Origin: Paracoccaceae bacterium
GTDB lineage: Bacteria; Pseudomonadota; Alphaproteobacteria; Rhodobacterales; Rhodobacteraceae
NCBI GenBank assembly: GCA_020447005.1
Contig: JAGRDO010000081.1
Span: 1 to 49,247 of the forward strand
DNA: 49,247 bases
Direction: 5' to 3'
Of the stretch, positions 46,571-49,247 are shown one piece after another (the stretch's first letter is position 1; each line of letters starts with the position of its first letter). Below the pieces are notes generated by a model. That model searched no databases and was not told where the DNA came from. It was given only the letters and a program-made list of their open reading frames with translations. The translations under genes and the position numbers were made by a program.

Positions 46571-47203
46571 TCAGGCGGCACCGATCCCGCGCAGGATGAT
46601 GGTCTTGACGCTGGCCTTGGCCGCGCGCCACTGGGTGTCGGACAGGGTGCGCCCGCCGTTCAGCGTTTCGATCTGGTGGCCGAAATCGGCATAGTGCTGT
46701 GTCGTTGCCCAGAGCATGTATAAAAGGTGCCGGGGATCGACGGGCGCCATCTTGCCTTCGTCGATCCATTTCTGAATGAGGGCCGCGCGCCCCGCTGTCC
46801 AGTCGCGCAGCGTCGTTTCCAGATAGTCCTGAATGACCGGGGCGCCATGCATCACCTCGCTGGCCCAGACCTTGGAGCCATCTGCATGGCGGCGCGAGAT
46901 TTCCATCTTGGCGTCGATATAGGCGCCGATCCCCTCGACCGGGCCGGGGGCCTTGTCGAAACTGTCCGCCGCATGCAGCCAGATCTCGAAAATCTGCTGA
47001 ACGACCTTGCGGTAAAGCTCTTCCTTGGTCGCGAAATAGTAATGCAGGTTGGCTTTCGGCAGCCCCGCCATGTCGGCGATCAACTGCATCGTCGCCCCGC
47101 CAAAGCCCGCCTCGGCAAAAACCTTTTCGGCCGCCGACAGGATGCGCGCCTCGTTCTCGCGCCGCGTGGCATCGCGTTTCGATATGCGTTCGGGGGCGGA
47201 CAT
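46571..47203 (-). CDS. TetR-family regulator, RutR-like (second), for the pyrimidine/hydantoin genes
   Basis: A 210-residue regulator with the same architecture as the first: RRENEARILSAAEKVFAEAG, TMQLIADMAGLPKANLHYYF, TKEELYRKVVQQIFEIWLHA, ISRRHADGSKVWASEVMHGA and C-terminal PRHLLYMLWATTQHYADFGH. It is divergent from the N-carbamoyl hydrolase gene and two TGACC-N4-GGTCA palindromes lie in the 124-base gap (47220-47235, 47254-47269). It probably represses that operon and itself, with a pyrimidine-derived ligand by analogy with RutR. Confidence 0.85.
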   Translation of the reverse strand: MSAPERISKRDATRRENEARILSAAEKVFAEAGFGGATMQLIADMAGLPKANLHYYFATKEELYRKVVQQIFEIWLHAADSFDKAPGPVEGIGAYIDAKMEISRRHADGSKVWASEVMHGAPVIQDYLETTLRDWTAGRAALIQKWIDEGKMAPVDPRHLLYMLWATTQHYADFGHQIETLNGGRTLSDTQWRAAKASVKTIILRGIGAA

Positions 47204-47219
47204 GTGCTCCAGTTTTTCG

Positions 47220-47269
47220 TTGACCGGTTGGTCAGGTTATGATGCTCTCAACCCTGACCATACGGTCAG
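47220..47269. promoter_or_regulatory. Two RutR-type operators between the second TetR gene and the hydrolase gene
   Basis: TTGACCGGTTGGTCAG (47220-47235) and the perfect palindrome CTGACCATACGGTCAG (47254-47269) share half-sites TGACC/GGTCA and 4-base spacers; their centres are 34 bases apart. Two sites in a divergent promoter fit two-dimer repression. Match to the site at 45505 suggests cross-talk between the two regulators. Confidence 0.65.
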
Positions 47270-47327
47270 AAAACGAGTCGCCGCAAGGGGCATCAAGACC
47301 CCGGATAAGCCCGACAGGAGGATGACG

Positions 47328-48578
47328 ATGCCCGCCCCCGGAGAGAATCTCAGGATCGACCCCGCGCGCCTTTGGGACAGCCTGATGGAGATGGCGAAGA
47401 TCGGCCCCGGCGTGGCGGGCGGCAACAACCGCCAGACCCTGACCGATGCCGATAGCGAGGGGCGGCACCTTTTCCAGAAATGGTGCAAGGCCGCCGGCAT
47501 GACGATGGGCGTCGACACGATGGGCAACATGTTCGCGACGCGCGCGGGCGAGGACCCGGATGCGCTGCCGGTCTATATGGGAAGCCACCTCGACACCCAG
47601 CCGACGGGCGGCAAATATGACGGCGTTCTGGGGGTTCTGGGCGCGCTGGAAGCCGTGCGCACGATGAACGACCTCGGCATCCGAACGAAACACCCGATCG
47701 TCGTGGTGAACTGGACGAATGAGGAGGGGACGCGCTTTGCCCCCGCCATGCTCGCCTCTGGCGTCTTTGCGGGCAAGCACACGCAGGACTTCGCCTATGA
47801 GCGTGAGGATCACGACGGCAAGACATTCGGCGATGAGCTGAAGCGCATCGGCTGGGTTGGTGACGAACAGGTCGGCGCGCGCAAGATGCACGCGCTGTTT
47901 GAACTCCACATCGAACAGGGCCCGATATTGGAGGCCGAGGGCAAGGATATCGGCGTCGTCACCCACGGGCAGGGTCTTCGCTGGATTGAATGCACCGTGA
48001 CGGGCAAGGAAAGCCATACCGGATCGACGCCGATGCATATGCGCAAGAACGCGGGCCGGGGTTTGGCGCTGGTCACCGAACTGGTGCATGAGATCGCGAT
48101 GAAGAACCAGCCGAACGCGGTCGGCGCCATCGGCCATATCGACGTCTATCCGAACTCGCGCAACATCATCCCGGGCCGCGTCGTCTTCACCGTCGACATG
48201 CGCACGCATATCCTGCCGAAGCTGAACGCGATGGTGGCCGAGTTCATGGAACGCGCGCCGAAGCTTTGCGAGGGGATCGGTGTCGAGTTTGATGCCAGGA
48301 TCGTCGGCCAGTTCGACCCGCCCGCCTTCAACGAGGGGTGCGTGAAGGCCGTGCGGTCGGCGGCCGAGCGGCTGGGCTACAGCCACATGGACATCGTGAG
48401 CGGAGCGGGCCACGACGCCTGCTGGATCAACGACGTGGCGCCCACCGCCATGATCATGTGCCCCTGCGTCGATGGGCTGAGCCACAACGAGGCCGAGGAG
48501 ATCAGCCCGGAATGGGCGGCGGCGGGGACGGATGTGCTGCTGCACGCCGTGCTGGAGACGGCGGAGGTCGTGGGGTGA
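47328..48578 (+). CDS. Zn-dependent N-carbamoyl-amino-acid / beta-ureidopropionate hydrolase
   Basis: A 416-residue M20/AmaB-family enzyme. Visible metal and substrate parts: YMGSHLDTQPTGGKYDGVLG (metal His87, Asp98), NWTNEEGTRFAPAML with catalytic Glu-Glu, LHIEQGPILEAEGKDIGVV, GKESHTGSTPMHMRKNAGRG, and C-terminal VSGAGHDACWINDVAPTAMI and DGLSHNEAEEISPEW. It removes the carbamoyl group from N-carbamoyl-beta-alanine or N-carbamoyl-amino acids, the last step of reductive pyrimidine or hydantoin breakdown. The next full gene in the pathway is the dihydropyrimidinase at 49046. AGGAGG is 6 bases before the ATG at 48328-type spacing, i.e. before 47328; an ATG at 47322 is less well placed. Confidence 0.9.
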   Translation: MPAPGENLRIDPARLWDSLMEMAKIGPGVAGGNNRQTLTDADSEGRHLFQKWCKAAGMTMGVDTMGNMFATRAGEDPDALPVYMGSHLDTQPTGGKYDGVLGVLGALEAVRTMNDLGIRTKHPIVVVNWTNEEGTRFAPAMLASGVFAGKHTQDFAYEREDHDGKTFGDELKRIGWVGDEQVGARKMHALFELHIEQGPILEAEGKDIGVVTHGQGLRWIECTVTGKESHTGSTPMHMRKNAGRGLALVTELVHEIAMKNQPNAVGAIGHIDVYPNSRNIIPGRVVFTVDMRTHILPKLNAMVAEFMERAPKLCEGIGVEFDARIVGQFDPPAFNEGCVKAVRSAAERLGYSHMDIVSGAGHDACWINDVAPTAMIMCPCVDGLSHNEAEEISPEWAAAGTDVLLHAVLETAEVVG

Positions 48579-48592
48579 GCGTTGGGTATCGC

Positions 48593-48668
48593 AACGCAGT
48601 CCCGGACTTGATCCGGGACCTCTCGGCCAGCCCGGGCAGAGGTCCCGGATCAAGTCCGGGACTGCGTT
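48593..48668. repeat. REPIN-like doublet: perfect 31-bp inverted repeat
   Basis: Left arm 48593-48623 and right arm 48638-48668 are exact reverse complements over 31 bases, with a 14-base loop. Each arm contains its own palindrome, TCCCGGA-TCAAG-TCCGGGA in the right arm. The doublet lies between the hydrolase stop and the GIY-YIG start (36 bases before its ATG). Confidence 0.9.
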
Positions 48669-48704
48669 CAGGAAGCGTTAACCTTTCCGCGCCACGACTG
48701 TCGC

Positions 48705-48995
48705 ATGGCGTTTTACACCTACATCATGAGTTGCGCGTCCAATACGGCGATCTACATCGGTGTGACGGGCGATCTTCTGAAACGGGTCGCCGAACACAAA
48801 TCCGGCTTCGGCAGCGAGCACACCTCGAAATTCCGAATCCGCAAGCTTGTTTACTTCGAGGTTCACGAAACCTTGCCGGATGCCATCGCGCGCGAGCGGA
48901 AATTGAAGCGTTGGCGCCGGGCGTGGAAAGACGAACTGATCCGGGAAACCAATCCGCACTGGTCCGACTTGACGATGGAGGTCTCGTTTCTCTGA
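48705..48995 (+). CDS. Small GIY-YIG nuclease domain protein
   Basis: A 96-residue stand-alone GIY-YIG domain of the YhbQ/COG2827 type. It begins MAFYTYIMSCASNTAIYIGV; the YIM/YIG core, Arg27 in LLKRVAEHKSG, LVYFEVHETLPDAIARERKL with Glu64, and the C-terminal NPHWSDL are the usual elements, and all appear intact. Such proteins can nick or cut DNA; their cellular role is poorly known. The gene interrupts the hydrolase-dihydropyrimidinase pair and is bounded by copies of one palindromic unit (48593-48668 and 48993-49023), the latter starting at its TGA stop. Confidence 0.9.
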   Translation: MAFYTYIMSCASNTAIYIGVTGDLLKRVAEHKSGFGSEHTSKFRIRKLVYFEVHETLPDAIARERKLKRWRRAWKDELIRETNPHWSDLTMEVSFL

Positions 48996-49023
48996 GGCCC
49001 CGGATCAAGTCCGGGGCTGCGTA
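48993..49023 (+). repeat. Third copy of the palindromic unit, at the GIY-YIG stop codon
   Basis: 27 of 31 bases match the right arm at 48638-48668, in the same orientation. Two of the four differences are the two halves of one stem pair (T-A to C-G), so the stem CCCCGGA/TCCGGGG is kept. It begins with the TGA stop of the nuclease gene. Confidence 0.85.
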
Positions 49024-49045: not shown

Positions 49046-49247
49046 ATGACCACAGTCATCAGGAACGGCACCATCGTCACCGCCGATCTGACCTATAAGG
49101 CGGATGTGCTGATCGAGGGCGGGAAGATCGCCCGGATCGGCGAAAACCTCAAGGGTGACAAGGAGTTGGACGCCACCGGCTGCTATGTCATGCCGGGCGG
49201 GATCGACCCGCACACCCATCTCGAAATGCCCTTCATGGGCACCTATT
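49046..49247 (+). CDS. hydA: Dihydropyrimidinase / D-hydantoinase, N-terminal part
   Basis: The 67 visible codons begin MTTVIRNGTIVTADLTYKAD and reach MPGGIDPHTHLEMPFMGTY, the HxH metal-binding motif of the amidohydrolase superfamily and the dihydropyrimidinase pattern. The enzyme opens dihydrouracil/dihydrothymine (or hydantoins) to the N-carbamoyl compound that the upstream hydrolase acts on. GGGAGA precedes the ATG. The gene is cut by the window edge. Confidence 0.92.
   Translation, partial: MTTVIRNGTIVTADLTYKADVLIEGGKIARIGENLKGDKELDATGCYVMPGGIDPHTHLEMPFMGTY

Follow-up and report, generated by a model that had tools for sequence, protein, structure and literature searches.

Which enzyme, if any, recognises and spreads the short palindromes dispersed through bacterial genomes? 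The question is raised by a 431-nt unit in the first 49,247 nt of contig JAGRDO010000081.1 from a Paracoccaceae bacterium (GCA_020447005.1), a stretch called the window below, in which three copies of one palindrome surround a small GIY-YIG nuclease gene. The classical repetitive extragenic palindromic (REP) elements and their doublets (REPINs, REP doublets forming hairpins) are tied to an HUH tyrosine transposase, RAYT (REP-associated tyrosine transposase, also TnpA-REP). The present comparison of relatives suggests an answer of a similar kind with a different enzyme. The GIY-YIG clade is very probably tied in function to its flanking palindromes, and its gene probably encodes the dedicated nuclease of a REP-type palindrome family, one that would mobilise the palindromes around it. 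Judged from sequence, a large class of bacterial repeats has in this nuclease a strong candidate for its missing enzyme, one that would recognise the repeats and perhaps also spread them. Flanking hairpins match across the unit, track the protein and usually equal the dispersed type of the genome, and the presence or absence of units at conserved junctions also counts for this reading.

The palindromic unit in the window

A preliminary description of this DNA, made from its letters, had reported an inverted repeat, a third repeat copy and a 96-residue GIY-YIG reading frame, and sequence comparison within the window confirms all three. The perfect 31-bp inverted repeat has arms at 48593-48623 (forward strand) and 48638-48668 (reverse strand) with a 14-nt spacer at 48624-48637. 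The third copy, at 48994-49022, is 93% identical over 29 nt and lies 355 nt from the right arm. The nuclease gene occupies 48705-48995 on the forward strand, its ATG 36 nt beyond the right arm. All three palindromes have the hairpin form GTCCCGGA-tcaag-TCCGGGAC, or a GC variant of it, with an 8-bp stem and a 5-nt loop (48599-48619, 48642-48662 and 48997-49017). The left copy carries ACGCA at its outer end and CTC at its inner end; the second is inverted, and both ACGCA ends of the resulting dimer (48593-48668) point outward. In the downstream palindrome (48994-49023, reverse strand), the inner GAG overlaps the TGA of the gene and TGCGT forms the outer end. The order is accordingly ACGCA-hairpin-CTC, spacer, GAG-hairpin-TGCGT, gene, GAG-hairpin-TGCGT. 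Because of this order and orientation around the gene, copies 1 and 3 are the terminal inverted repeats of the 431-nt unit; copies 1 and 2 form a short dimer built like the unit itself.

The 15-mer core of the palindrome, CCGGATCAAGTCCGG, occurs in seven exact copies on four contigs of the 3.5-Mb genome, three of them in the window; the reversed core, used as a control, has no copy in the same 3.5 Mb. Other genomic places of the palindrome include inverted pairs with similar ends.

The GIY-YIG protein and its clade

The window protein matches PF01541 (GIY-YIG, E=1.3e-14), its sole Pfam match at E<=0.001, and the source genome holds just one gene of this kind at E<=0.01. Residues Y6, Y17, G19, R27 and E64, which we take to be the catalytic positions of the fold, are conserved in at least 99 of 101 sequences. 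The Pfam match, together with the conserved Tyr, Tyr-x-Gly, Arg and Glu, places the protein in the GIY-YIG nuclease superfamily and predicts a nuclease with an intact active site. Its predicted structure has a pLDDT (predicted local distance difference test) of 93; 1zg2 is the top match both by Foldseek and by sequence profile, and Slx1 is the top match by VIA. Fold and catalytic residues are shared with Slx1 and with the small UPF0213/YhbQ-like proteins. Relative to the latter, a sister clade, the window clade adds a C-terminal NPxWxDL-like motif, absent from the single aligned sister-clade sequence (L027; L and G numbers denote our loci and genomes). One member from the window's family (L024 in G120) has an altered YIG motif and no strict hairpin alongside.

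A profile built from 18 relatives with the NPxWxDL-like motif matches at least 136 of 385 genomes of the class, in 104 of 277 genera, at E<=1e-12, with up to 13 candidates scored per genome, and 71 of 299 genomes of the phylum at E<=1e-20. From these searches 193 gene loci in 130 genomes were drawn (19 from the window's family, 145 from the class and 29 from other classes). The draw is non-random: mainly the best-scoring places listed were taken, 120 of them were retrieved by hand, and late-listed places, those near contig ends and those with internal stops (three retained) were partly omitted; three loci have a cut flank.

Hairpins beside the gene in relatives

A strict hairpin, defined by a perfect stem of at least 8 bp, a loop of 3-9 nt and a distance of no more than 200 nt from the gene, stands beside 156 of the 193 genes (81%), on both sides in 97 and on one side in 59, with none in 37. 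None of the 12 sister-clade control loci (L027 and 11 others, one with a cut flank) has such a hairpin (Fisher p=1e-8). The preliminary description had foreseen that its idea would fall if this nuclease were found in many genomes with no palindromes nearby; for the most part it is not so found. Hairpins are dense near the gene (345 in 76.9 kb) and sparser farther away (86 in 239 kb), and because those outer stretches are mostly coding, intergenic segments were also compared alone. Within 3-kb loci, 75 of 98 segments adjoining the gene carry a hairpin, as against 1 of 13 elsewhere, the latter a small number.

Two sets of named loci were also compared. In 22 loci recovered through short peptides of the window protein, hairpins lie on both sides in nine, on one side in six and on neither in seven; the five Roseovarius and two Devosia loci of this set all have at least one. 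In 13 named loci from a plasmid collection, inspected by reading within 200 nt, the corresponding numbers are nine, two and two. Some records listed as plasmids have the size of chromosomes (NZ_CP119142.1 and NZ_AP026896.1, of 2.2 and 4.9 Mb), and CP090106.1 ('pSymB', 3.7 Mb) has hflX, lpxB and gltA. Loci from Planktothrix (L194), Spirosoma (L195) and Flavobacteriales (L275) have no strict hairpin and carry longer repeats with GTCAT/ATGAC ends nearby; in L275, both sides of the gene hold about 134 bp of such a repeat.

Relation to CGTC-tagged and RAYT-associated REPs

In many relatives the hairpin takes the form GTC-AT..stem-loop-stem..AT-CCA, and its loops include CTTGA and GAAA. Among 144 relatives with a 4-5 nt loop, the tag ends in TC in 105, and in 96 of these it is GTC. 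Tags can be read on both sides of 54 units and face outward on both in 35, are mixed in 14 and face inward in five; in 43 further two-sided units, including that of the window, at least one tag is unreadable. Since the tags point outward in 35 of the 54 readable pairs, the unit that carries the gene is, as a rule, a dimer in head-to-head order in which the gene takes the place of the spacer. These features recall the CGTC-tagged REPs, for which the relevant parts of a 2013 survey give stems of 8-9 bp, loops of 4-5 nt, a CGTC, TGTC or CCTC tag, a CCA tail and a mostly head-to-head dimeric arrangement (PMC3733652). The hairpins of many relatives match them in stem length (8-9 bp), loop length (4-5 nt) and head-to-head order. 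The window palindrome agrees in its 8-bp stem and 5-nt loop but differs in its ACGCA tag, in a G-C rather than AT first pair and in a CTC rather than CCA tail. Because tag and tail differ, it is not counted among the CGTC REPs; it works as they do and accompanies the same nuclease clade.

In those parts of the survey, CGTC REPs appear to be without a dedicated transposase, association with transposase genes is recorded as absent, no dedicated enzyme is reported and GIY is not mentioned; the question of what mobilises these repeats is raised explicitly (PMC3733652). The same text equates dRS3 of Neisseria with CGTC-1 (PMC3733652, Di Nocera 2013), and in a Neisseria gonorrhoeae record the GIY-YIG gene lies among CGTC-like ATTCCCGC repeats. 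No link of GIY-YIG proteins to REPs, REPINs or dRS3 was found in titles and abstract openings of the open literature, a coverage without preprints and most subscription papers that leaves priority unsettled.

With REP/RAYT the system has in common short dispersed palindromes, tag-outward dimers and one gene flanked by its own palindrome type, which in the window's family is likewise inherited in place. The dispersed elements are, like REPs, palindromes of 20-40 bp that often form inverted dimers, here in few copies (seven exact). The differences lie in the enzyme, a GIY-YIG protein and not an HUH (Y1) tyrosine transposase, and in the window tag, ACGCA and not GTAG.

Covariation of palindrome and protein

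An enzyme that reads its palindrome should vary together with it. In 14 genomes with at least two two-sided units, similarity is 0.68 between the sides of one unit, compared with 0.26 between sides of different units in the same genome, and the best match of a palindrome is its own other side in 23 of 33 cases (14 expected). Across 71 loci in 28 genomes, the palindrome beside the nearest protein from another genome resembles a locus's own palindrome more than those of its siblings (0.47 versus 0.33, p=0.001), the own palindrome being best in 37 of 71 (28 expected). Loop length requires 27 changes on the protein tree, against 45.0 with shuffled labels (minimum 38 of 200 shuffles); with labels shuffled inside genomes only, the mean is 30.4 and 18 of 500 shuffles are as low as 27. 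The within-genome signals are modest. A rarer tag, CTC/GCTC in place of GTC, is common to a protein subgroup from two families (L052, L091 and L110, with TGMTDD...CEKLVW); three more CTC-tagged loci sit elsewhere in the tree, and the tag needs 3 changes in all, where shuffled labels need 5.9 (at least 4 in each of 200 shuffles).

Eleven genomes of the window's family have a clear gene-adjacent type; in all 11 it is also the commoner of the dispersed types (CCGGATCAAGTCCGG or CCGGGCTTGACCCGG), and in 10 of 11 (G020 fails) once the gene's own copies are removed. Clarity was a matter of judgement, and the genomes are related and therefore not independent trials. Left out were G009 and G026, with mixed neighbours, G054, in which a third type is adjacent and two dispersed copies of the first type occur, and G025, G085 and G120, which have neither type. 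The preliminary description had proposed that the nuclease recognises or mobilises the palindrome, which is borne out in part: recognition gains indirect support from palindromes that vary with the protein, and mobilisation would be a further step.

In two other explanations the nuclease spreads nothing. The enzyme might cut or resolve palindromes that form cruciforms or stall replication, and so protect the genome; this is unlikely, and it leaves unexplained why the gene itself sits between palindromes in 97 of 193 loci and why paralogues of one genome tend toward palindromes of their own. Alternatively, another enzyme, such as a RAYT or an IS200-type transposase, could spread the palindromes, and these, serving as terminators or spacers, would gather by chance round this small gene. 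Such gathering would suit the report, in parts of the CGTC survey, that REPs lie mostly downstream of coding regions, and is hard to reconcile with its record, in the same parts, that no tyrosine transposase gene flanked by CGTC repeats was found in CGTC species (PMC3733652). The covariation, the sister-clade genes without hairpins (0 of 12) and the other intergenic segments of the same loci (1 of 13) also argue against it and make it very improbable.

Dispersed palindromes in genomes with and without the gene

That palindrome copy number should correlate with the gene across genomes was a check set in advance by the preliminary description, and the correlation holds in both family (p=1e-6) and class (p=9e-8), in tests that do not remove shared ancestry. 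Of the 149 genomes in the family set, nearly one per genus, 17 have the gene, and 12 of these carry the window 15-mer elsewhere than beside it; among the 132 that lack the gene, 17 carry the 15-mer. At least four copies are present in nine of the 17 and four of the 132, respectively. The other palindrome type of the family is found in 10 of 17 genomes with the gene and 28 of 132 without (p=0.002). At class level, where counts include copies beside the gene, the CGTC-1 hairpin is present in 34 of the 122 carriers of the gene and in 18 of the 263 other genomes, with 14 weak profile matches counted as lacking the gene; counting these as carriers gives 34 of 136 versus 18 of 249 (p=3e-6).

Location, synteny and movement

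The unit lies between an amaB-like hydrolase/carbamoylase gene (47322-48578, forward strand; likely ATG within an open reading frame at 47049-48578) and a hydA-like dihydropyrimidinase gene (forward strand), of which only the start, 49046-49247, falls within the window before the gene continues past its end; both names are from the preliminary description. The picture drawn there, of a unit that splits a normally adjacent pair, is not supported as a recent event. At 13 of the 19 family loci, and at 10 of the 22 named ones, the nuclease gene stands beside an amaB-like and/or hydA-like gene, and because this location is common to several genera, the nuclease gene appears to be an old syntenic one and not a fresh insertion; the proteins encoded at these syntenic loci are only 44-49% identical to that of the window. 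An empty junction in close relatives, also suggested there, is found in part. Among 18 other genomes of the genus, the amaB-hydA junction is compact in three (93-97 nt), holds a GIY-YIG unit in two, holds other sequence in 12 (282-732 nt) and is unreadable in one. Of these two, G815 has the same unit as the window; in G808 the GIY-YIG gene is clearly another one, and so is the palindrome. Junction contents (L157-L174) vary from genome to genome in 12 of the 18, as if at a hot spot, and the compact junctions (L163, L165 and L172) have in common a G+C-rich repeat upstream of hydA, CCGGGGGC..GCCCCCGGACCCCCG-like.

Elsewhere, the neighbours include sufB/sufC, hflX/mazG, lpxB/gltA and fnrL. Azospirillum lipoferum 4B carries a unit in a sufB-sufC junction that is without one in A. 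ramasamyi, A. oryzae and strain B510. In Sinorhizobium, the gene is constant and the surrounding palindrome dimers differ between two strains. The Sphingobium unit of TomTYG46 is matched by six more plasmids over 99-100% of the locus; at its place stands one double-tagged palindrome in TomTYG64, a less perfect one in TYG74 and no palindrome in TYG72. To judge from this state, a unit seems either to have been inserted into a palindrome or to have been lost by recombination through it, in intergenic stretches that cannot be aligned to the base.

Interruption of its own target is the mark of a homing gene, which the Sphingobium case fits with either direction possible. The palindrome would then be a target or host site, not cargo: the nuclease would cut a palindrome that stands alone, and the gene would enter during repair templated by a copy that bears it. 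Units without target duplication (see below) suit such homing as well. Yet the TomTYG64 and TYG74 palindromes could be excision scars of recombination between two palindromes, and homing alone does not explain the multiplication of gene-less dimers. Double-tagged solitary palindromes are uncommon, with three among 418 distinct hairpins in the sampled loci, one of the three of another type, and five overlapping pairs among the palindrome matches listed in the class search. A nuclease domain and possible movement by cutting and repair are points in common with homing elements; no intron was seen in the unit, whose ends are hairpins, and the 96-residue protein has no DNA-binding tail. Homing is a rather remote prospect, yet together with the protective role described above it is a serious rival to mobilisation.

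In favour of mobilisation of the palindromes by the nuclease there is one recent pair of whole units, in G779, contig 23, where two units (L139 and L240) lie 0.6 kb apart, encode proteins 94% identical and have palindromes that match on both sides, which marks a tandem duplication. It is the sole recent duplication of whole units seen, and counts for this reading. Over 107 paralogous protein pairs in 42 genomes, with copies per genome partly sampled, identity ranges from 0.39 to 0.94, and only the G779 pair exceeds 0.82. Near-identical whole units at different sites of one genome, as expected of an insertion sequence, were not seen. The picture would be one of a resident gene and roaming palindromes, resembling RAYT and REPs.

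Several observations weigh against such mobilisation. Hairpins are missing by the strict definition from 37 of 193 loci, 31 of which have not even an imperfect one; in a looser test of inverted similarity between flanks, only 54 of 130 loci exceed the 99th percentile of permuted pairs, and one of 11 sister-clade controls also passes. The gene's location is syntenic in the window's family, and none of the 42 genomes with paralogues shows a recent jump between distant places, all pairs other than that of G779 being at most 81% identical. Target duplication does not rise above permutation, direct repeats of at least 3 bp flanking 13% of 97 units versus 21% of permuted ones when ends are assumed 4 nt outside the stem. 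Finally, 17 genomes of the family set and 18 of the class set bear palindromes without the gene, as full re-search and scoring confirmed, two of them having 69 and 95 exact copies, respectively. As these 35 genomes, some of them rich in copies, are gene-less, palindromes evidently persist without the gene. Genomes with many exact palindromes and no clade gene are G116 and G010 in the family and G424 and G501 in the class; G116 has 69 and 121 exact copies of two types, and G424 has 95 of CGTC-1.

A proposed mechanism and its implications

We infer every step after recognition. The GIY-YIG enzyme, whose fold is also Slx1-like, would bind the hairpin in its single-stranded or extruded form and would cut at or near it. 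Cellular repair might then place copies of the dimer, and on rare occasions of the whole unit with its gene, elsewhere without target duplication. In the window's family, the gene would stay put, as RAYT genes do, and short dimers would spread. We propose the system as the counterpart of REP/RAYT in function, built on an enzyme unrelated to RAYT.

A broader proposal is evenly balanced between holding and failing: CGTC REPs and their relatives, including Neisseria dRS3, would be an old and large class that dedicated GIY-YIG nucleases propagate, every nuclease being fitted to a hairpin of its own. They would constitute a second, independently evolved REP system, based on cut-and-repair copying by a hairpin-cutting nuclease and present in the Alpha-, Beta- and Gammaproteobacteria, with Bacteroidota and Cyanobacteria as probable further hosts. 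With a short protein of apparently intact active site beside such hairpins in 156 of 193 loci, the question of what mobilises CGTC REPs becomes directly testable. If the proposal is true, two unrelated enzyme folds would serve one kind of selfish palindrome, and GIY-YIG nucleases would gain a role in bacterial mobile DNA.
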